A DNA stretch of 42,549 nucleotides, from the NCBI GenBank assembly GCA_025355325.1, contig JANXZX010000219.1, forward strand, positions 1 to 42,549, read 5' to 3'. Position 1 is the first letter of the stretch. The number at the start of each line of letters is the position of its first letter. The position numbers and the translations under genes are program-made. Source of the stretch: Geobacteraceae bacterium (GTDB taxonomy: Bacteria > Desulfobacterota > Desulfuromonadia > Geobacterales > Pseudopelobacteraceae). The notes under the pieces are model-generated. The model did not search any database, was not told where the DNA came from, and saw nothing but the letters and a program-made list of their open reading frames with translations. Shown in pieces: positions 3-11,010 of the stretch.

Positions 3-1115
3 TATTCGAAAGGCGCCGCCGTCACCCCCGGTACCGGCTATGGCAGTTGTTCGGCCAGCAAGTGTCACGGTTCGGCAGCGGTCACCTGGGGCTCCACCCT
101 CTGGTCCTCAACTGACCTGTGCGGCAAATGTCACAGCAGCAGCACGACAGGAGCGGTCGGGACCGGCACGCCATTTTACGGCACGTCATACCCGGTAAAA
201 GTGACCTCTAACACCGATGTCAAGGTCGGCGCCCATACTGCCCATATCAATGCTCCGGGCATGCTGAGCGCGCCTTTCGTATGCAGCGACTGTCACGGCA
301 CGGTGGCATTGTCGTCAGCTACCCACCCGAACGGAGCAACCGATTTTGTCTGGAGCCCGTTGGCAAAAAGCGGCGGTCTAACACCTGCGTACAATTCCTC
401 CACCGGCGTCTGCAGCAACGTCTATTGCCACGGCAGCAACATGCCGGGTGGCGACATCAGCGGCACCAACCGGTCACCGGTCTGGAACCAGCCGTTTATG
501 TCGGCGACGCTCACTTCGGCGGCCTGCGGCACCTGCCATGGTTTTCCGCCATCGCCCGGCACCGGTCATCCCGCTGTTACCATTCCCGCAGGGTTCCCGG
601 CAACTGTCGCAATTGGCACCACCTGCAGCTGCCACGCAAACATCAACCCTGCCGGGAATAGCTATGACACCATCTTTGCGGATAAAACCCTCCATATCAA
701 CGGAGCGGTGGAAGTCAGTGCTTCCGGTTCCTGTGATAGCTGCCACGGCTATCCACCGGCCCCCGCCGGTTTTACCGGTACCCAGAATAACTGGCTCTAC
801 GCAAAAACAGAAAATTATCCCGGCGGCGGCGGAGCCCACACAATCAACAATCATGTCAGCATGACGGCTGATCCGGTCAGAGGCTTTACGTTGTGCAGCG
901 CGTGCCATAATCCTGCCGATCATGCCATGAGTCCCATAGTCTTTAATCCGAGCCAGAATATTAAGGCAGGAGTTAACCAGCGATTCAGACACGAAGCAGC
1001 CAGGCAGTTCAAATACAGCTCTAACCGGCTGGATGGTGCAGCTCACCTGACCGGAACCTGTTCGAACGTCAGCTGTCATTTTGGTGCGTCACCCAAGTGG
1101 GATCCAAGCCATTAA
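3..1115 (+). CDS. multiheme c-type cytochrome, 5' truncated by window edge
   Basis: The reading frame is open from base 3, so the gene begins before the window; the GTG at 201 is an internal Val codon. The visible 370 residues carry nine haem-type motifs: three CX4CH (CSASKCH, CSNVYCH, CSNVSCH), five CX2CH and one CXCH (CSCH at 624-635). This alternation is typical of the large secreted cytochromes of Geobacter, which move electrons between periplasm, outer membrane and extracellular acceptors. The last ~110 residues, including the terminal KWDPSH, are nearly identical to the end of the next gene, so the two are recent paralogues or have exchanged sequence. His residues between motifs (GAHTAHI, HINNHVS types) are candidate distal axial ligands. 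The missing N-terminus presumably carries the signal peptide seen in the next two genes. That a c-type cytochrome is encoded is certain; its exact electron partner is unknown. Confidence 0.93.
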   Translation, partial: YSKGAAVTPGTGYGSCSASKCHGSAAVTWGSTLWSSTDLCGKCHSSSTTGAVGTGTPFYGTSYPVKVTSNTDVKVGAHTAHINAPGMLSAPFVCSDCHGTVALSSATHPNGATDFVWSPLAKSGGLTPAYNSSTGVCSNVYCHGSNMPGGDISGTNRSPVWNQPFMSATLTSAACGTCHGFPPSPGTGHPAVTIPAGFPATVAIGTTCSCHANINPAGNSYDTIFADKTLHINGAVEVSASGSCDSCHGYPPAPAGFTGTQNNWLYAKTENYPGGGGAHTINNHVSMTADPVRGFTLCSACHNPADHAMSPIVFNPSQNIKAGVNQRFRHEAARQFKYSSNRLDGAAHLTGTCSNVSCHFGASPKWDPSH

Positions 1116-1161
1116 GGTTAATAAGCAGGAATACCTGTAATTACAGCAATTCACGCAGCAG

Positions 1162-1167
1162 AAGGAG
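1162..1167 (+). promoter_or_regulatory. strong ribosome binding site of the second cytochrome gene
   Basis: AAGGAG lies six bases before the ATG at 1174 and fixes the start. The next cytochrome has the same arrangement (AAGGAG at 3783-3788, six bases before its ATG). Confidence 0.8.
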
Positions 1168-1173
1168 ATTACC

Positions 1174-3702
1174 ATGATGAATGCACATTTTATTGGCCGA
1201 TTCGCAACCATGTTCGTCTGGATGACCGCCGGTGTGCTGCTGTACGGCAGTGAAACGGTTCAGGCAGCGAGTTTTCTCAACTCATGTACTACCTATTGCC
1301 ATGGGATGCCGCCCCGGGATGCCGTCCGCAAAGGCAACCCGCATTTTAATTCCCAATCCAGTGCCTCCATCGGGAACCATCGTACCCATCTCCCTGCCGC
1401 TGCGGATGCAAACAGCTGCAGCATTTGCCACACTCCGGTTGCGGCAACCGAATTCGGTCATCAAAATGACGTCATCAAGATGGCCAACAGCCTGAAAGGA
1501 TATTCGTCCGCCTCTCTCCGTGCCAGATATGACAAGGGGGTGTTCTTTAATCAGACGTCACTGCCTAATCTGACCAATGCCACCTGTTCCAATGTCAGTT
1601 GCCACTTCGAGAAAAAAACGCCGGTCTGGGGATCGGCAAATTATAACGTCACCACCGACTGCAATGCCTGTCACGGCGCACCGCCATCCGGCACCTCAGC
1701 CGCTCCGGCAGGCGGCCTTGCCGGCAGTCATGCCCGGCACGACGCCTACTTCCCGGGAATTGCCAATTGCCAGAAGTGCCATCCCAATGCAACCACGTTT
1801 ATTCATGCCACCAGCGCCGGACGTGCCTTGAAGGTTCAGGGGTTCCTGCGGGATCCGCTTAATGCTCTGGAGGCAACCGGCACCTATAGCGGCACCGGCG
1901 CCAATTACCTGCCGAGCAAAAGCGCAGCCCAGGTGTTCGGCACCTGCAGCAACCTGTACTGCCACAGCACCGGGCAATCCGCAACCGGTGCCGGGACCGG
2001 TACCGCTGTGACAACCGCAGCTTGGGGCAGCGGCGCGCTGTCGTGCGGTTCATGTCACCAGAACATGGGTCCTGCCGTCAATGCATCCGCAACCGGCAAG
2101 CATGCCCGACATGCCCAGACCGCCGGGATCTCCTGTTCCGTATGCCACGGTTCTCCATACACCAGCACTACCGTTCCGACCGGGGCCGGTACCACCCATG
2201 TGGACAGGAATATTAACCTGGCCTGGACCGGCATCGCGGCAACCCCAGCCACCACGTACTCGAAGGGTAATACCTTTGCAGCCGGTGTTTCCGCCTACGG
2301 CTCCTGTTCCACGTCGTACTGCCACAGTACCGTACAAAACGCCACTACCGGACTCGCCGGAGCGACCTACCGGACGGTCAGCTGGACCTCCGCAACGACC
2401 CTTTCCTGCGCCGGATGCCATGTCGATATGGCCACCGATGCCACAGGTACCGGCAGCCACCGGATCCATACCCTGGCAACCGGTGACAATTTTGATTGTG
2501 CTGTTTGTCATGCCGGTTACACGAAGGTTTCCACAGTACCGGCAACTCATGTCAACGGCCTGATCGACGTGAGCGGCACGTTCACCTACTCTCAAGGAAT
2601 CACACATGTTCCGGCAAACGGATACGGTACCTGCTCTGCCGGCGCCTGCCACGGAGCGGGCAGCGTTACCTGGGGTGCCGTCTATGTTGCACCGGGCAAT
2701 ACATTCCCGTACTCGACAAGCCAGTGTGACAAGTGTCACTCCGGAACAGCAACAGCGCCGTTCTACTCAACGGCTGCACCTACTAAAGTCACTGCCAACA
2801 CCGATGCCAAAGTCGGCGCCCATACCTCTCACCTGACAGCGCCGGATTCCCTTGCCACCGCATTTGTCTGCGCCGATTGCCACGGTACGGTTACGTCAGT
2901 GAATTCAGCCGGCCACATGAACGGCACTACCAACTTCGTCTGGAGCGCTCTGGCTCAAACTGGCGGGTTGGCACCGGCCTATAATGCCGGCACCTGCACT
3001 AACGTCTATTGCCACGGGGCCAAAATGCCGGGCGGCGATACCAGCGGCAGCAACAAGGCACCGGTCTGGAACAGCACCACCTATCTGCCGGCAACACTTA
3101 CCACCGCAGCCTGCGGCACCTGTCACGGCTTCCCGCCGTCAGCTGTTTCCGGCCATCCGACGGTCGGCATACCGGCTGGTTTCCCGACGACAGCCACAAT
3201 CGGCGGTACCTGCAGTTGTCACCCCAACATCAATACTGCAGGCAACAGTTATGCAAATATCTTTGTCAATAAGGCCCTCCATATCAATGGTACGGTTGAT
3301 GTGGCCGCCAGTGGTGCCTGCGATACCTGTCATGGCTATCCTCCTGCCAGTGCTACCTTTGTTGCTGCCGCTAATAACTGGGCTAACGCGAAACCGGAAA
3401 ACTACCTGGGCGGTGGTGGTGCCCATACAATTAATAGCCATGTCAGTGCCCTTGCCGTTCCGGCAGATGGTTTTGCAAACTGCAGCAAGTGCCACGATGC
3501 GGCCGATCACCAGATGACACCGATCGTCTTTAATCCGAGCCAGAACATAAAAGCGAAAGCCAATCAGCGCTTCAGATACGAAGCAGCAAAACAGTTCAAG
3601 TACAGCTCGAACCGATTGGATGGTGCAACTCACCTGACCGGAATCTGCTCGAACGCCAGCTGCCATTTCGGCGCAACTCCGAAGTGGGATCCGAGTCATT
3701 AA
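1174..3702 (+). CDS. 20-motif multiheme c-type cytochrome
   Basis: This 842-residue secreted cytochrome has an N-terminal signal peptide (hydrophobic stretch about residues 8-25, cleavage probably after VQA near residue 31). I count 20 haem-type motifs: twelve CX2CH, six CX4CH, one CX3CH (CTTYCH, C38-H43, right after the signal peptide) and one CXCH (CSCH, 3211-3222). CX4CH and CX2CH alternate as in Geobacter 'CxxxxCH...CXXCH' domain proteins. Family members move electrons through the periplasm or across and beyond the outer membrane. The first ~240 residues are almost identical to those of the following gene, while the last ~110 match the preceding gene, giving a mosaic paralogue set. Whether the CX3CH and CXCH sites bind haem cannot be told from sequence. 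The GC-rich Ala/Thr/Gly linkers produce many spurious ORFs on both strands. Confidence 0.95.
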   Translation: MMNAHFIGRFATMFVWMTAGVLLYGSETVQAASFLNSCTTYCHGMPPRDAVRKGNPHFNSQSSASIGNHRTHLPAAADANSCSICHTPVAATEFGHQNDVIKMANSLKGYSSASLRARYDKGVFFNQTSLPNLTNATCSNVSCHFEKKTPVWGSANYNVTTDCNACHGAPPSGTSAAPAGGLAGSHARHDAYFPGIANCQKCHPNATTFIHATSAGRALKVQGFLRDPLNALEATGTYSGTGANYLPSKSAAQVFGTCSNLYCHSTGQSATGAGTGTAVTTAAWGSGALSCGSCHQNMGPAVNASATGKHARHAQTAGISCSVCHGSPYTSTTVPTGAGTTHVDRNINLAWTGIAATPATTYSKGNTFAAGVSAYGSCSTSYCHSTVQNATTGLAGATYRTVSWTSATTLSCAGCHVDMATDATGTGSHRIHTLATGDNFDCAVCHAGYTKVSTVPATHVNGLIDVSGTFTYSQGITHVPANGYGTCSAGACHGAGSVTWGAVYVAPGNTFPYSTSQCDKCHSGTATAPFYSTAAPTKVTANTDAKVGAHTSHLTAPDSLATAFVCADCHGTVTSVNSAGHMNGTTNFVWSALAQTGGLAPAYNAGTCTNVYCHGAKMPGGDTSGSNKAPVWNSTTYLPATLTTAACGTCHGFPPSAVSGHPTVGIPAGFPTTATIGGTCSCHPNINTAGNSYANIFVNKALHINGTVDVAASGACDTCHGYPPASATFVAAANNWANAKPENYLGGGGAHTINSHVSALAVPADGFANCSKCHDAADHQMTPIVFNPSQNIKAKANQRFRYEAAKQFKYSSNRLDGATHLTGICSNASCHFGATPKWDPSH

Positions 3703-3708
3703 TGTACC

Positions 3709-3743
3709 GGCGTCGCGGTGGGAATGTTCCCTGCCGCGACGCC
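3709..3743 (+). other. intercistronic hairpin between cytochrome genes
   Basis: A perfect 10-bp GC-rich stem (GGCGTCGCGG at 3709-3718 with CCGCGACGCC at 3734-3743) encloses a 15-nt loop just after the stop codon of the 20-motif cytochrome. No U-run follows, so it may stabilise the upstream transcript end or be a weak terminator rather than a strong intrinsic one. Confidence 0.5.
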
Positions 3744-3794
3744 AACGTGGTGTAATAAGCTTGAAAAAAGGTAGACGGAAAGAAGGAGCGTGCC

Positions 3795-6700
3795 ATGAGG
3801 GAAAAGTGCGAGAACATACCATACTACTCGCAGGTGGTAACGGGGATTTTTGTTCTGCTGGCGTTAACGGCCAGCCCTGACAGAGTCCAGGCCGCCAGTG
3901 TTCTCAACTCGTGCACCACGTACTGTCATGGTGCTCCGCCGCGGGATGCGGTTCGTAAAGGCAACCCGCATTTCGGTTCGCAATCGAGCGCGTTCATCGG
4001 GAATCACCGCAATCATCTTCCTGCCGCTGCACCTGCGGCAAGCTGCAATGTCTGTCATCCGGCGGTTGTTGCAACCGATTTTGGCCATCAGAATAATGTC
4101 ATCAGAATGGCCAACAGCCTGAAAGGATATTCCTCCGCTTCCCTGCGAGCCAGATATGACAAGGGGGTCTTCTTTAATCAGACCTCACTGCCGAATCTGA
4201 CCGCTGCAACCTGCTCCAATGTAAACTGCCACTTCGAGAAGAAGACGCCGGTCTGGGGAGCGGCAGCATATAATGTGACCACCGACTGCAACGCCTGTCA
4301 TGGCGCACCTCCGGCCGGTACCACGGCGGCCCCCGCAGGCGGCCTGGCCGGGAGCCATGCCCGCCACGATACCTACTTCCCTGGAACGGCCAATTGCCAG
4401 AAGTGTCATCCCGGCTACGCAACATTCATTCATGCCACCAGCGCCGGACGGGCTTTGAAGGTTCAGGGATACCTGCGCAATCCGCTCAATGCGCTGGAGG
4501 CGGGTGCCACATATACCGGTTCCGGGAATAACTATCTTCCGAGCAGGAGCGGTTCCCAGTTGTTCGGTACGTGTACCAATCTGTACTGCCACAGTAACTC
4601 CGGCCCCAACGCAACTGCCAGAACAACTGCGGTTCCGACCTGGGGAGGCGCGGTGCTCACCTGCACCGCATGTCATGCCGATATGTCTACGCTTGCCGCA
4701 GCAGCGCCCAACGGCAGCCACTACGTACATGCCAGCACCGGCTACGCTGCCGGCGGCAAATTTCTCTGTTCCGATTGTCACGGCACCGGATATTCGGCTT
4801 CCGGCATCGTTACGGCAACCCATGTCAATCAACTGGTTGAGCTGAGCTTCACCGGATCCATTGCCCCCGGCACGACCTATTCGAAACCATCACCCATGGC
4901 CGCCGGTACCGCCTGGGGGACCTGTTCCACGAGCAAGTGCCATGGTTCCGCAACTGCGATACCGTGGGGCGGCACACTCTGGTCCACGACCGATCAGTGC
5001 GGCAAATGTCACAGCAGCTCCACCGCCGGGGCGATAACCCAGGCGGTACCGTTCTACAATACCGCTTATCCGGTAAAAGTTACCGCCAACACCGATGCCA
5101 AGGTCGGCGCCCATACCAACCATATGACATCACAGGCTCTCGGTATTTCAGCCAGCACCGCCTGTACGGATTGCCACGGCACCGTGACACTCACCGGCGC
5201 AACACATATGAATGGCGCAACCGCGCTGGCATGGAGTGCCCTGGCTACCAGGACCAGTACGCTCGTACCAACATACACCGCTACCACAGGTCAATGTACA
5301 CTAACGTATTGTCATGGCAACTCCATGCCGGGCGGCGATACCACCGGTACCAACAAATCTCCGATCTGGAAGGATCCTACCTATCTTCCGGCGACCGTCA
5401 GTACGGCGGCCTGTAGCCTCTGTCACGGGTTCCCGCCTTCCTCGACATCCGGGCATCCGGGCGGCATTACCATCCCGGCCGGTTTCCCGGCAACCGCAAC
5501 GATTGGGACGACCTGCAGCTGCCACAGCAATATCAACCCTGCCGGAAACAGTTATGTCACCATGTTTGTTAATCCGGCCCTCCATATCAACGGCATTTTT
5601 GAACCGGCGGCAAGCGGTCATGTCTTCCCGTATGGCGGTTCTCTGCACCTGAGTGCGGCAGGACTCACGCCATGGTCAAGTTGTACCGGTTGTCACACGA
5701 ATACTGCGGGCGGAACATATCCGGTCGCGGCGGGCACGGCTCCCAACTGCACCGGCTGTCACATCCAGGGATTGAGGGTGCCGTCGGGAACTTCCTCCTG
5801 CTGGGACTGCCATGGCAGCAGTGCCACTGATGGCAGGCCGGTCGGTAACGTCTTTCCCAATATCAGCGGCAACCATCGTCTCCATGTTGCCATAACCGGT
5901 TCCACGTGCGCGACCTGCCACACCGGCGGCGGTACCGGCACCGTAACCCACGGTTCCAGCAACCGGACTGCGGCGACACCTGCGACAGTAAAGGTCGCCT
6001 TTACCGGTCAGGGGACAGTGCCGCTTTGGACTCTTGCTACCAAAACATGCTCCGCCACCTTCTGTCATGGACAGGGAGCTCCGGTCTGGGGCGCCAGAAG
6101 CGGAGCTCCGGTGAACAGCTTCCCCTATTCATCGGTACAGTGCGCCAAGTGTCACTCCGGGAACCTGGCTGCTGATGTGACCGCCGCCAACCCGTTCTAC
6201 TCAACGGCAATTCCCAAGGTAACCGTTGCCACCAACGCCAAGGTCGGCGCACATACCTCGCACCTCACCAGTACCGACAGTCTGGCAGCCGCCTTTGTCT
6301 GCGCCGACTGCCACGGTGCCGTAACGCTGACGGCAGCAACTCACATGAATGGTACCACCAACTTTACCTGGAGCACGCTGGCAACCAAGAGCGGGGCGCT
6401 GACGCCGACCTATACGGCATCAACCGGAGCTTGTGCCAACGTGTACTGCCACGGCGCCAGCATGCCGGGCGGGGATACCACGGGAACGAACAGGGCGCCT
6501 GTCTGGAACGTCGCCTTCCTGTCGGCAACCTTAAGTCGCGCCGCCTGTGCTTCGTGCCACGGCTTCCCTCCGGCGGCAGCTTCCGGGCATCCGGCTGTTA
6601 CCCTGCCCGCAACATGGCCGGCCACCGGAGCAGCCACAGGCGCTTTGGGCACGACCTGCAGCTGTCACGCCAATATCAGCACCACCGGTACCACATATGC

Positions 6701-7322
6701 AAATATTTTCGTGAACAAGGCACTGCATATTGACGGTATACTGCAAGTGTCCGGCGGCCATGCGGTGCCGTATGATACCCATAAAGCCGATGTCGTGGCG
6801 GCTGGCGGCAATACCGCCTGTCTCGGCTGTCATGTCATGGGAACCGCTGCAAGTCCGTACCCGGCAGCGGTGGTCGGCAACCCGCCCGACTGCATGAGCT
6901 GTCACATTAAGGCGGCTCCGGTCCATACCGGCACGGTTGCCGGAGCGAACTGCAGTTCCTGTCACGGTCTGAGTACGGCGACTACCACCAAAATCGGCCG
7001 ACCGGTCGGCACGGCATATCCTGACCGTCTCGGATATCACAGCGGCGCCAGTGACAGCGCCCATGGCACCGCTGCCTGTACCGTGTGCCACAGTGGGGCT
7101 GGTACCACCAGCGGCAACAACTCCGGAATCAATCACGGCAAGGGTTCCACAGCCGGTCCGGTCAGAAACGGCAAACCGAACGTTGTCGGCCCGATGGTGA
7201 ACGGGATTACCCCGACCAATAGCGCCAAAGGTGTCGGCATTCCGGCCAATGGCACAACCTGTAATCATGGTACGATCAGCAGCGGCTGTTCGGGTGGCGG
7301 TACGCAGACCAATAGATGGTAG
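3795..7322 (+). CDS. 28-motif multiheme c-type cytochrome
   Basis: This 1175-residue secreted cytochrome has a signal peptide (hydrophobic about residues 13-27, cleavage near VQA at 31-33). I count 28 haem-type motifs: nineteen CX2CH, six CX4CH, one CX3CH (CTTYCH, 3912-3929) and two CXCH (5514-5525 and 6657-6668). The N-terminal ~240 residues copy those of the preceding gene. A block of about 160 residues running from VGAHT.H through PGGD.TGTN to the CXCH occurs twice (about residues 435-590 and 800-965), so the extra length comes partly from internal duplication. The C-terminal third differs from its paralogues: it lacks the KWDPSH ending and finishes in a haem-free Gly/Asn/Thr-rich tail with two extra Cys. 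The stop codon overlaps the start of resB, so the cytochrome and its probable haem ligase are translationally coupled. Confidence 0.95.
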   Translation: MREKCENIPYYSQVVTGIFVLLALTASPDRVQAASVLNSCTTYCHGAPPRDAVRKGNPHFGSQSSAFIGNHRNHLPAAAPAASCNVCHPAVVATDFGHQNNVIRMANSLKGYSSASLRARYDKGVFFNQTSLPNLTAATCSNVNCHFEKKTPVWGAAAYNVTTDCNACHGAPPAGTTAAPAGGLAGSHARHDTYFPGTANCQKCHPGYATFIHATSAGRALKVQGYLRNPLNALEAGATYTGSGNNYLPSRSGSQLFGTCTNLYCHSNSGPNATARTTAVPTWGGAVLTCTACHADMSTLAAAAPNGSHYVHASTGYAAGGKFLCSDCHGTGYSASGIVTATHVNQLVELSFTGSIAPGTTYSKPSPMAAGTAWGTCSTSKCHGSATAIPWGGTLWSTTDQCGKCHSSSTAGAITQAVPFYNTAYPVKVTANTDAKVGAHTNHMTSQALGISASTACTDCHGTVTLTGATHMNGATALAWSALATRTSTLVPTYTATTGQCTLTYCHGNSMPGGDTTGTNKSPIWKDPTYLPATVSTAACSLCHGFPPSSTSGHPGGITIPAGFPATATIGTTCSCHSNINPAGNSYVTMFVNPALHINGIFEPAASGHVFPYGGSLHLSAAGLTPWSSCTGCHTNTAGGTYPVAAGTAPNCTGCHIQGLRVPSGTSSCWDCHGSSATDGRPVGNVFPNISGNHRLHVAITGSTCATCHTGGGTGTVTHGSSNRTAATPATVKVAFTGQGTVPLWTLATKTCSATFCHGQGAPVWGARSGAPVNSFPYSSVQCAKCHSGNLAADVTAANPFYSTAIPKVTVATNAKVGAHTSHLTSTDSLAAAFVCADCHGAVTLTAATHMNGTTNFTWSTLATKSGALTPTYTASTGACANVYCHGASMPGGDTTGTNRAPVWNVAFLSATLSRAACASCHGFPPAAASGHPAVTLPATWPATGAATGALGTTCSCHANISTTGTTYANIFVNKALHIDGILQVSGGHAVPYDTHKADVVAAGGNTACLGCHVMGTAASPYPAAVVGNPPDCMSCHIKAAPVHTGTVAGANCSSCHGLSTATTTKIGRPVGTAYPDRLGYHSGASDSAHGTAACTVCHSGAGTTSGNNSGINHGKGSTAGPVRNGKPNVVGPMVNGITPTNSAKGVGIPANGTTCNHGTISSGCSGGGTQTNRW

Positions 7323-8647
7323 TGGTGAACAACGTGAAGCAATTCTTCTCTGCGCGAAGAATGTCACTGGTGCTGATACTGTTCCTTGCCGGGGTGATGT
7401 ATCTTTCGACACTCATCCCGCAGAGAATCGATACATCTCCGCAGCAGCTCGAAGTATGGCGTTTCGGTCATAACGGGCTGCTCTGGCTGATTGATGCAGT
7501 TAATCTGCACAGCATCTACTCGCAACCGTGGTTTGCCGGGGCGATTTTGATTGCTGCCTTGTCACTGGGGATTTCATCCGTCAAACAGGTGGGTGTTGCG
7601 CGAAAAAAACTCATTTCGACTGCGGCGGCTACAACAGACGAAGTGGCAGCGGGAGTATCCGGTGAGTCACTGCTAACGGTAGCTCGTACCCACCGATACC
7701 GGCGGATTTCCACCTCGCCGGACGGGCAATTGAAGTTTGTCAGGAACCCGTGGGGGTATTTCGGTAGTTCGTTGCTGCACATCGGCATTACCGTGGTAAT
7801 CTCGGTGTCGCTGTACGTGGCACTGACCTCCCGTCAGGCGTCGCTGATCCTGGTTGAGGGGGAACAACACAACAGCAGTCAGCCCTGGGTACAGTCCGAG
7901 CATGGCCTGTTTGCCAGGCCACTACAGGTGCCGGGGACCATCCGTCTTGACAGGGTGAGAGTACAGTTTGACGGTAAACAGCAGCCGGTCGAGGTTTTAT
8001 CGGATATTTCCATTACCGATCCGTCAGGTCAGGTTGAGTCAATGACCGCATCGATAAATCGCATCATGAGCTATCACGGCATGCGCATTTATCACGCCTC
8101 ACAGTACGGCAATGCTTTCGCGGTAACGTTTACCGATCAAAACGGTACGACTCATCGTGAAACAATCGCCGCTCACCATCCGCTGAGCGCTTCAGAAGCC
8201 GGATATAGCGATGAATTTGCCGTTGATTGGTCAGTGAATCTTCTTTCCGCGAAGTATTTTGCCGATGTGTCCAGACAATCCATGACCGGCAGTAACCCTG
8301 AATTAACTCTCCGTGCCAGTCAGGGGGGGAGGGAGGTTGCCCGAACAACTTTGATATCCGGTACATCCGGCACGCTGGGTGATTATCGGGTACAATTGAA
8401 CGGGGTATCGAAATGGGCAAAGCTGATCATTGTCGATACCCACGGTATGCCGCTGGTGTTCACCGGTTTTGCAATCATCATGATTGGCGGCCTGCTCCTG
8501 TACCTTATGCCGCCGCGAGAGCTGATTGCGGTACGGGAAAAGCATAATTGTTATACGGTGTTCTGGAAAGCAGCCTCATTCAGAGACTTTTTTGTTGAAG
8601 AACGCGATGGATTGACAACGGAGTTTGAAAGGGTGACCGCCGTATGA
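7316..8647 (+). CDS. resB: ResB/Ccs1-family cytochrome c biogenesis protein
   Basis: This 443-residue membrane protein is of the ResB/Ccs1 family, which together with ResC/CcsA forms the system II haem-export and ligation complex that attaches haem to apocytochromes outside the cytoplasmic membrane. Visible features are a TM segment near residues 17-35 ending in LSTLIPQR, a second near 72-88, a third after NPWGYFGSSLLHIGI (about 145-170), a large extracytoplasmic domain with YHGMRIYHASQYG, and a last TM near 380-400. The three-TM-plus-large-loop-plus-TM layout fits the family. The ATG at 7316 overlaps the cytochrome stop by 7 bp; in-frame GTGs at 7322 and 7325 are alternatives. The 3' end overlaps resC by 4 bp (ATGA). 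Coupling to the cytochrome suggests it serves these unusual clients, which is an inference. Confidence 0.9.
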   Translation: MVVVNNVKQFFSARRMSLVLILFLAGVMYLSTLIPQRIDTSPQQLEVWRFGHNGLLWLIDAVNLHSIYSQPWFAGAILIAALSLGISSVKQVGVARKKLISTAAATTDEVAAGVSGESLLTVARTHRYRRISTSPDGQLKFVRNPWGYFGSSLLHIGITVVISVSLYVALTSRQASLILVEGEQHNSSQPWVQSEHGLFARPLQVPGTIRLDRVRVQFDGKQQPVEVLSDISITDPSGQVESMTASINRIMSYHGMRIYHASQYGNAFAVTFTDQNGTTHRETIAAHHPLSASEAGYSDEFAVDWSVNLLSAKYFADVSRQSMTGSNPELTLRASQGGREVARTTLISGTSGTLGDYRVQLNGVSKWAKLIIVDTHGMPLVFTGFAIIMIGGLLLYLMPPRELIAVREKHNCYTVFWKAASFRDFFVEERDGLTTEFERVTAV

Positions 8648-9471
8648 AAATGTCTCTGGGGTCTTACATAGCTGCCAATTGGGCGGTCGTCATCATATAT
8701 GTCCTGGCAACGATAGCCACGGTTAGCGGGGTACTGTTCGGGAAAGATCACTTCGAACGGATCAGTTACCGGATTGCCGCAGTCGGTCTGATTATGCACA
8801 GCGTGCTGATTGCCGCCTGGTGGCGCGAGGTGGGGCATGGCCCCTACATGGCCCCCAACGAAGTGCTCTCATCCGATGCCTGGGTGGTCATGGTCTGTTT
8901 TTTCGTCTTTCTCCGCTTCTATCCGCGCATCAAGCCGGTCAGTGTTCTGGCATTCCCTGCCGCGTTCCTGATGCTGGCGCTGTCGCTGTTTTATAATCCC
9001 GGCATCCGTTCCCTGCCTGCCACGTTTCGCAGCGTCTGGCTGCTGATCCATATCGGACTGTACAAGATTGCCCTGGCTACGCTGGTAATCGCCGCTGCTC
9101 TGGCATTGTTCTATCTGCTCAAGAAACGTTCGGACAGCGGATGGTTGCTCCGGCTGCCGCCGCTTGAAACACTGGATGTCTACAGCTACCGGTTTGCCGG
9201 ATTCGGCTTTATATTCTGGACCATCGGCATGCTGGCCGGATCAATCTGGGCCTTTCAAGCGTGGGGACGCTTCTGGGGGTGGGATCCGACAGAAACCTGG
9301 GCGCTGATAACCTGTCTGATGTTTGGCTTGTATCTGCATATGCGCCGGTTTTACCAACTGAAGGGAGTCAGGGCGGCATGGACGCTCCTGGTCTGTTTTT
9401 GTGTCTCGTTAGTCACTCTGTTCGGCATGGCCACATTGAGCGGTTCGATTCACGCGGAATATTTCAAGTAA
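8644..9471 (+). CDS. ccsA: ResC/CcsA-family haem ligation protein
   Basis: This 275-residue polytopic membrane protein has the tryptophan-rich haem-handling 'WWD' signature (WGRFWGWDPTETW, about residues 207-219) of the CcsA/CcmC/CcmF superfamily. Candidate haem-ligand His lie in or beside membrane helices at H52, H136 and H270 (SGSIHAEYF). About eight hydrophobic segments are visible. CcsA proteins relay haem to the outside and present it to the CXXCH motif, working with ResB. It overlaps resB by ATGA, as expected for a two-subunit CcsBA. It differs from cytoplasmic-membrane CcmC by the C-terminal HAEYF and by its ResB partner. A dedicated thiol reductant (ResA/CcsX type) is not adjacent; the nearest thioredoxin-like gene lies 26 kb away. 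Confidence 0.92.
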   Translation: MKMSLGSYIAANWAVVIIYVLATIATVSGVLFGKDHFERISYRIAAVGLIMHSVLIAAWWREVGHGPYMAPNEVLSSDAWVVMVCFFVFLRFYPRIKPVSVLAFPAAFLMLALSLFYNPGIRSLPATFRSVWLLIHIGLYKIALATLVIAAALALFYLLKKRSDSGWLLRLPPLETLDVYSYRFAGFGFIFWTIGMLAGSIWAFQAWGRFWGWDPTETWALITCLMFGLYLHMRRFYQLKGVRAAWTLLVCFCVSLVTLFGMATLSGSIHAEYFK

Positions 9472-9495: not shown

Positions 9496-11010
9496 ATGAC
9501 TATAAAACGCGTTATCCTTATAACTCCTCCGTATCATTCCGGTGTTGTTGAATCTGCCGGTACCTGGCTGAATGTCGGGTTTGTCTCCATTGCCGGTTCC
9601 CTTCGGGCGGCGGGGTACGAGGTTGATTATTACGACGCCATGTCTCTCTGGCATACCTGGCCGGATATTCAGAAGCGCATTGAAGCGTTCCGTCCTGATG
9701 TCGTTGCCACCACGTCATTTACCGCTTCCATCACCGATGCCATAAAAATCTGCCGTCTCGCCAAAGAAATCAGCCCGACCATCGTGACTGTTCTTGGCAA
9801 TGTCCATGCCACCTTCTGTTATGACGAAATCCTGCTTCATGACAATAAAAGCGTTGATTTCATCGTGCGGGGCGAAGGTGAGGTTACGCTGGTGGAATTA
9901 CTCTCCTGTCTTAATGCGGGTGGTAACCCGGGTAAGGTCAATGGCCTTGCCTTCTGGCGCGATGGCGGGGTGCAGGTTACGCCGAAAGCGTCCTACATTC
10001 AGGATCTGGACAGTCTTCCCATGGCCTGGGATCTGGTGGATTGGCCGATTTATAAATATCGCGCCAAACATGATGCCCGCCTGGCCATAATCTCCTCGTC
10101 ACGGGGGTGCAAACAGCAATGTTCCTTCTGCTCTCAGCAGTTGTTCTGGTCCCAGACCTGGCGGGCGCGAAGCCCGGAAAATGTTATTGCCGAACTGGAA
10201 CTGCTCAGTTTTACCTATGGCGTGGAAGTCGTCATGCTGGCCGACGAAATTCCGACCTTCGACCGGGTCCGGTGGGAGCGCATCCTCGACCTGATGATAG
10301 CCCGCCGGGTGCCGGTAAAACTGCTGATGGAAACCCGTGTTGACGATATCCTGCGCGATGCCGATATAATGGATAAATATCGTCTGGCCAGTGTTGACCA
10401 TATTTACGTCGGGGTCGAAGCCGGTACGCAGGAGACGCTCGACCTGTTCAAGAAAGACACCCAGGTTGCTCAATCCAAGCAGGCCATTGACCTGATCAAC
10501 AACGCCGACATTGTTTCCGAGACCTCTTTCGTGCTCGGCATGCCTGACGATACTCCGGAATCTATTGCCTGGACCGTTGATCTGGCTAAATATTACAACC
10601 CTGACATGGCTTTTTTTCTCGCCATTGCTCCCTGGCCTTACGCAGATCTGTATCCTCAACTTGAAAAATATGTCGCGACTAAAGACTACAGCAAATATAA
10701 TCTGGTGGAGCCGGTCATAAAGCCAAAGAATATGACCATGGAAGAACTGGGCCGCGAACTGGGCAAGGCTGCGCAGAAATTCTTCATGCACAAATTTCAG
10801 ACACTGCAGACACTGACTCCCTGGAAGCAGGAATTCATGCTTTCGGTGCTGAATCTGCTGATGAATCATTCCTATCTGGCCGGCGAGATGAAGTCGGCCA
10901 TGCGGGACGGCGCAGGCATGCCGGAAGAGATCAAGGCTATGCTTAAAACAGTGCACGGCGCTGCCGGGCGGCATGGCGACCATCACCCGGCCGTAGCGCC
11001 GCTTCCATAG
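9496..11010 (+). CDS. B12-binding-type radical SAM protein
   Basis: A 504-residue protein with an N-terminal cobalamin-binding-like Rossmann domain (about 1-150; GNVHATFCYDEIL and RGEGEVTLVELL are typical of this class) followed by a radical SAM core with the [4Fe-4S] motif CX3CX2C at C205, C209 and C212 (GCKQQCSFC). Such BchE-like enzymes catalyse methylations, cyclisations or rearrangements; the substrate cannot be told here. The classical DXHXXG cobalamin motif is not evident, which is common in the BchE-like branch. AGGAG precedes the ATG by about eight bases. It follows ccsA by 24 bp and precedes a small membrane protein by 9 bp, so it is probably in the cytochrome operon. That position suggests modification of a haem, a quinone or the cytochromes, but this is speculation. 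The C-terminal ~110 residues contain no motif I recognise. Confidence 0.9.
   Translation: MTIKRVILITPPYHSGVVESAGTWLNVGFVSIAGSLRAAGYEVDYYDAMSLWHTWPDIQKRIEAFRPDVVATTSFTASITDAIKICRLAKEISPTIVTVLGNVHATFCYDEILLHDNKSVDFIVRGEGEVTLVELLSCLNAGGNPGKVNGLAFWRDGGVQVTPKASYIQDLDSLPMAWDLVDWPIYKYRAKHDARLAIISSSRGCKQQCSFCSQQLFWSQTWRARSPENVIAELELLSFTYGVEVVMLADEIPTFDRVRWERILDLMIARRVPVKLLMETRVDDILRDADIMDKYRLASVDHIYVGVEAGTQETLDLFKKDTQVAQSKQAIDLINNADIVSETSFVLGMPDDTPESIAWTVDLAKYYNPDMAFFLAIAPWPYADLYPQLEKYVATKDYSKYNLVEPVIKPKNMTMEELGRELGKAAQKFFMHKFQTLQTLTPWKQEFMLSVLNLLMNHSYLAGEMKSAMRDGAGMPEEIKAMLKTVHGAAGRHGDHHPAVAPLP

Follow-up and report, generated by a model that had tools for sequence, protein, structure and literature searches.

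The closest described counterpart of the cytochromes reported here is a small anammox tetrahaem protein of Kuenenia stuttgartiensis, in which a contracted haem-binding motif, CKCH, was identified (review PMC7096707, citing Ferousi et al. 2019). In its title, the original paper (Ferousi et al. 2019, J Biol Chem 294:16953) describes the motif as contracted and functional. The present analysis concerns a stretch of 42,549 nucleotides from a Geobacteraceae bacterium (contig C110, G000:C110:1-42549), hereafter the window, which encodes three adjacent multihaem c-type cytochromes, C1, C2 and C3, with four copies of the one-residue motif CSCH (CX1CH, or CXCH in general). Each CSCH very probably binds haem c covalently and descends from an ordinary CXXCH that lost one residue between its cysteines. 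CXCH cytochromes are said to be reported across Bacteria and Archaea in the abstract of Ferousi and co-workers; those of the window are a new multi-copy family of this known rarity.

Compared by description, the Kuenenia protein and the window cytochromes are both multihaem c-type cytochromes with one residue between the haem-binding cysteines. The functional CKCH (PMC7096707) contradicts a first-pass annotation of the window, according to which no haem attachment at this spacing was known. Unlike the Kuenenia protein, where X is Lys, the window family has Ser, Asn or Gly at this position, and its members are large, with about 15 to 35 sites and up to two CXCH per protein. The FEET pipeline counts CXCH as a search pattern (PMC11218250). 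Searches of the available literature passages with the spellings CXCH and CX1CH gave no further haem paper, and "contracted heme-binding motif" gave that review along with papers in which Ferousi 2019 is cited. No account of this CXCH cytochrome family was found in the passages covered; a survey of Desulfuromonadia cytochromes lay outside that coverage.

Two known families resemble the window proteins at sequence level. GSu_C4xC__C2xCH (TIGR01904, PF09698) matched C1 with 79.4, C2 with 159.7 and C3 with 133.7 bits, at a whole-protein cut-off of 27. That family is named for CxxxxCH and CxxCH, whereas the CX1CH site falls just past its matches. Against the pentahaem fold of MtrC/MtrF domains II and IV (PF22113; gathering cut-off 30 bits), C1 scored 30.5 and C3 67.2, C2 not being listed. 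A profile search matched the five haem sites before CSCH to MtrF residues 468-627 (3pmq) at an E value of 1.8e-5, and CSCH is the first site downstream of this MtrF-like five-haem block. Unlike MtrF, which has CX2CH, the window family has two CX4CH at aligned sites, and the match ends before CSCH.

The four CSCH sites and their cytochromes

The window genome comprises 4.17 Mb in 241 contigs; among named genomes it is closest to metagenome assemblies of Geobacter and Desulfuromonadales. The genes of C1, C2 and C3 come first, in that order, followed by those for CcsB/ResB and CcsA, all on the forward strand. The cytochromes and their relevant sites are as follows.

3-1115, forward: C1, multihaem c-type cytochrome, N-terminus lost at the contig start; nine Cys-His sites (five CX2CH, three CX4CH, one CX1CH)
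525-551, forward: C1 CX2CHGFPP haem site 5' of CSCH, motif read in frame
624-635, forward: C1 CSCH (CX1CH) site, in frame, aligned to CX2CH of relatives
1174-3702, forward: C2, 20-site multihaem cytochrome with a signal-peptide-like N-terminus
3112-3138, forward: C2 CX2CHGFPP site 5' of CSCH, motif read in frame
3211-3222, forward: C2 CSCH site, in frame
3795-7322, forward: C3, 28-site multihaem cytochrome with the module in two copies
5412-5438, forward: C3 CX2CHGFPP site 5' of the first CSCH, motif read in frame
5514-5525, forward: C3 first CSCH site, in frame
6546-6572, forward: C3 CX2CHGFPP site 5' of the second CSCH, motif read in frame
6657-6668, forward: C3 second CSCH site, in frame

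All four CSCH copies noticed in the first-pass annotation were thus found in frame, in three adjacent cytochromes. The flanks described there were correct upstream (GTT, GGT, GTT and GTT for C1, C2, and the first and second C3 sites). Downstream, NIN or NIS was present as claimed, but one residue separates it from CH (A-NIN, P-NIN, S-NIN and A-NIS). The distance to the preceding haem site, given as 20-30 residues, was 29, 29, 30 and 33 when counted between the CHGFPP histidine and the first CSCH cysteine, hence at the upper end of that range or slightly over it.

Only nine sites of C1 are visible because the contig starts inside the gene. The 20 sites of C2 comprise twelve CX2CH, six CX4CH, one CX3CH and one CX1CH, and the 28 sites of C3 nineteen, six, one and two, respectively; spacings of one, two, three and four residues all occur within each of these proteins. 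C-x(1-4)-CH pairs use 18/18 cysteines of C1, 40/40 of C2 and 56/59 of C3. Since every cysteine of C1 and C2 sits in a motif, the CSCH cysteines have no spare partner within those chains. Two cysteines outside haem motifs (TTCNHG and SGCSGG) lie in the C-terminal tail of C3 (7260-7289), and the cytochromes of loci L097 and L098 and of contig C107 of the window genome also have non-motif cysteines near their ends. A CX3CH site (SCTTYCHG) is located near the N-terminus of C2 (1285-1302), of C3 (3912-3929) and of the C107 paralogue (locus L019).

Conservation and origin of the site

A motif-selected set, collected as CxCHxN[ILVM] in reading frames of the window and loci L050-L111, contained 50 sites, each downstream of CXXCHGxPP and upstream of HI[ND]G or a closely similar sequence. 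This set was unable to test loss of the motif because it was chosen by the motif itself. A motif-independent set was therefore considered: a search of all multihaem frames with C1 as query gave 83 domains that extend across the site, and these were aligned. The set covers matches above 45 bits that span the site; the CXCH-bearing L094, later-fetched loci and the cytochrome of L065, split over two frames, fall outside it. Frames with identical last 200 residues were counted once, which probably drops near-copies such as the second 35-site CXCH protein of L060. With no motif required, 49 domains had CX1CH at the site and the remaining 34 had CX2CH; no other form occurred. Both cysteines and the histidine were kept in 83/83 domains, so that the free loss of one Cys which, for the first-pass annotation, would have spoken against the site was not observed.

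The 126 multihaem reading frames contained 2,512 Cys-His dipeptides. Of these, 52 were CX1CH, and 50 of the 52 lay at the one homologous site across the window and its relatives, with two elsewhere. The equivalent positions claimed in the first-pass annotation were thereby confirmed. CX1CH at this site is not chance. The motif was found in 53 distinct 60-base contexts, two chance wrong-frame matches being excluded from the count. The first Cys was TGC in 40 and TGT in 13, the second TGC in 38 and TGT in 15, and the His CAC in 37 and CAT in 16; X was Ser in 43, Asn in eight and Gly in two. This synonymous codon variation means that conservation acts at the protein level, and it excludes sequencing error. 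The proximal His of the CX1CH/CX2CH site was intact in 38/38 full-length domains, compared to 36 to 38 at the other sites. The site is a Cys-X-Cys-His conserved within a multihaem c-type cytochrome, and in its sequence it fits a contracted haem c motif.

When a profile of the window domains was run on the order's 141 genomes, scoring no more than 14 candidates in each, 79 genomes matched; the spacing was read only in the stretches taken. In a phylum sample 15/395 genomes matched, and matches better than 1e-60 occurred in only four, all from this order. Within the family, 4/4 matching genomes of another genus (L131, L134, L136 and L137) had CX2CH at the site, and two further genomes of that genus gave no profile match.

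Three side observations were made on these relatives. The CXCH cytochrome of L065:8060-11160 is spread over two overlapping frames, probably by an assembly frameshift, with its CXCH in frame. A related cytochrome group (L062, L069, L089, L090, L091 and L065) has five or six CX5CH plus one CXCH. Upstream of the large cytochromes in L050-L054, L057, L062 and L065, a short frame of about 162-188 residues that contains five CX2CH motifs is found repeatedly.

Alignment of the relatives placed the CXCH site on a CXXCH haem site as its homologue. Ordinary CX2CH haem sites stand at the equivalent place in L095 (CIGCHDHVNASGTGFTDVTKHINGVVD) and L131 (CINCHTHVNSSGTGFTDATKHINGVVD). The C107 paralogue from the window genome itself reads CSGCHGHNGSGATHIDG, and its CSGCH aligns with the site by domain profile (143.7 bits). 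L059, with CKDCHTNVNPLGTSYDTMFIDKSLHINGTVEV, is close to C1 except for the additional residue. In a tree of the domains built without the columns of the site, six changes between spacings were counted, at least four of them forced by well-supported (starred) branches, compared to a mean of 26.4 after shuffling. The 5-95% range over 200 bootstrap trees was 6-6, and the quick and careful trees were concordant. L059 (CX2CH) was sister to L085 (CX1CH) with support 100/100. The spacing tree by itself has no direction and does not distinguish gain from loss; CX2CH was taken as the older form because it is more widely spread, and we infer the direction of change from this. A second contraction, at a different haem site, was seen in L097 and L098, which lie on separate contigs of a single genome; both have CSCHNSTAAGTYPVARGTAPNC at the position of CTGCHTNTAGGTYPVAAGTAPNC (also given as CTGCHTNTAGGTYP) in window C3. 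Both gave long alignments with C3, at E values of about 1e-109 and 1e-112.

Candidate histidine ligands and competing explanations

Besides the histidines of their nine Cys-His motifs, the full-length CX1CH domains (25 sequences) have nine further histidines that are at least 88% conserved, at C1 positions 78, 81, 108, 189, 231, 279, 284, 307 and 348. It is suggestive that these nine extra histidines would suffice for bis-His ligation of all nine sites, CSCH included. Two of them are candidate distal ligands of the CSCH haem.

567-569, forward: C1 His189 (GHP), candidate distal ligand; His in 25/25 full-length CX1CH and 13/13 full-length CX2CH domains
693-695, forward: C1 His231 (HING), candidate distal ligand; His in 25/25 full-length CX1CH domains and 92% of 13 CX2CH domains

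The His of CSCH would be the proximal iron ligand, and a conserved His such as that of GHP or HING the distal one. The second Cys, and probably the first too, would be thioether-linked to a haem vinyl. A System II (CcsBA) lyase, perhaps that of the neighbouring genes, may attach the haem, and the site could form a step in the electron path right behind the MtrF-like five-haem block.

The first-pass annotation offered a novel haem site, a disulfide or a non-haem metal site as possible explanations. The analysis favours the first and argues against the other two. A disulfide is possible in principle for a CXC pair, but a disulfide or non-haem metal site in place of haem is improbable. Relatives carry CX2CH at the same site, the two spacings interchange on the tree with Cys, Cys and His always retained, neither Cys is lost in any of the 83 domains, and the nine conserved non-motif histidines match the nine Cys-His motifs. 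Changes of spacing that keep Cys-Cys-His are expected of continued haem binding; a disulfide or an empty site would not readily account for them. That CSCH is a decaying, empty haem site could be suggested by a motif one residue under canonical length; this is still more improbable, since the site was intact in 83/83 domains despite synonymous codon drift and its conservation equals that of other haem sites. A sequencing or frameshift artefact, for which no support was found within the window, has practically no probability left. The first-pass annotation had argued against an error from the four copies in the window, and an artefact is refuted by the 53 distinct DNA contexts and by the many independent assemblies in which relatives carry the motif in frame. 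A larger share of doubt goes to a variant in which haem is bound but held by a single thioether to the second Cys, with the first Cys free or modified. Abnormal attachment at altered spacing is possible in System I (PMC3601427). The retention of the first Cys in all 83 domains is not expected of an idle residue, and purified bacterial CcsBA is strict, attaching no haem to single-Cys peptides and accepting homocysteine for the first Cys (PMC8112865). The single-thioether variant is rated as rather unlikely.

Several points weigh against a covalent haem c site at CSCH. Haem attachment there is argued from homology. Altered spacings had mixed outcomes in the experiments of others, and an additional sulfur was detected between Cys and haem in one study (PMC4158909, PMC3601427). 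Several rows of the spacing tree stand on long branches. A tenth histidine, His370, is conserved in 72% of CX1CH domains, which makes the one-to-one count of histidines only suggestive. It also looks like the local ligand set changed along with the contraction: the residue two after CH (C1 213, window 639-641) is Asn in 49/49 CX1CH domains, whereas it is His in 28, Asn in three and another residue in three of the 34 CX2CH domains, and His348 (window 1044-1046) is present in 23/25 full-length CX1CH domains versus 3/13 CX2CH domains. No solved structure was found over CSCH, the sole profile match at an E value of 0.01, MtrF 3pmq, stopping short of it. AlphaFold2 modelling of the C1 domain, based on an alignment of 31 sequences, reached a mean predicted local distance difference test score of 47.9, too low for histidine geometry.

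A phmmer search of C1 against PDB gave no match at an E value of 1. A crude torsion-space model of a Cys-x(n)-Cys-His peptide on haem closed equally at n = 0 to 4; it was uninformative on CX1CH because n = 0, the intended negative control, closed too.

Haem lyase genes and meaning of the family

Directly downstream of C3 the window has two genes for cytochrome c maturation.

7316-8647, forward: CcsB/ResB-type System II cytochrome c biogenesis protein (PF05140, 77.4 bits, cut-off 24.6)
8644-9471, forward: CcsA-type haem lyase, Cytochrom_C_asm (PF01578, 126.5 bits, cut-off 29.9), with a WGRFWGWD stretch

With a ResB domain and a Cytochrom_C_asm domain each scoring over its cut-off in neighbouring genes, the pair fits a System II CcsBA. 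The WGRFWGWD stretch of CcsA is presumably the WWD motif. Against TIGR03144, the NCBI equivalog CcsB, the window protein scored 141.6 bits, under the cut-off of 187.6; by sequence it is a divergent member of the superfamily and not that equivalog. A reading frame at 9496-11010, directly after the CcsA gene, contains SRGCKQQCSFCS, which we take to resemble a radical-SAM cluster motif.

Unusual motifs are known to require dedicated lyases, such as the System II lyases NrfI (CXXCK) and CcsA1 (CX15CH) of Wolinella succinogenes (PMC6976685, PMC10663686). The window resembles these cases in that a CcsB/CcsA pair stands beside cytochromes with unusual haem motifs. Unlike in NrfI and CcsA1, CcsB and CcsA of the window are separate genes, and the likeness is one of adjacency. 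In a CcsA tree, a quick tree with long branches that omits 12 named loci and identical copies, the window CcsA was one of 12 System II proteins that form a divergent group. Nine of these form its own subclade, and 9/9 sampled members lie in CXCH clusters (Shimodaira-Hasegawa-like approximate likelihood ratio support 88, not starred). Three sampled sister CcsA (from C107 of the same genome, L105 and L109) adjoin cytochromes without CXCH. C107 (L019) is a second cluster in the window genome, with a 33-site cytochrome that has CX4CH and no CXCH, and with its own ResB and CcsA.

An exclusive link of CXCH to the window type of CcsA was rejected: 14 CXCH loci have a CcsA in the fetched stretch, nine of that type and five of others (L063, L081, L085, L087 and L098, not always adjacent). 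The window genome has ResB matches on six contigs and CcsA-type matches on seven. Because five CXCH loci have a different CcsA, and because the genome has many ResB and CcsA-type genes, it is no more than possible, and on present sequences doubtful, that the window CcsB/CcsA is a System II lyase subfamily adapted to CXCH, perhaps also to CX3CH and CX4CH.

Haem counts made by CXXCH, or by CX2-4CH only, overlook CXCH sites. C2 and C3 carry spacings of one, two, three and four residues in one protein, next to lyase genes. Similar domains that have either one or two residues between the cysteines form natural pairs in this family, and such pairs would allow direct tests of the tolerance of the haem lyase and of the effect of the contraction on haem geometry and potential.

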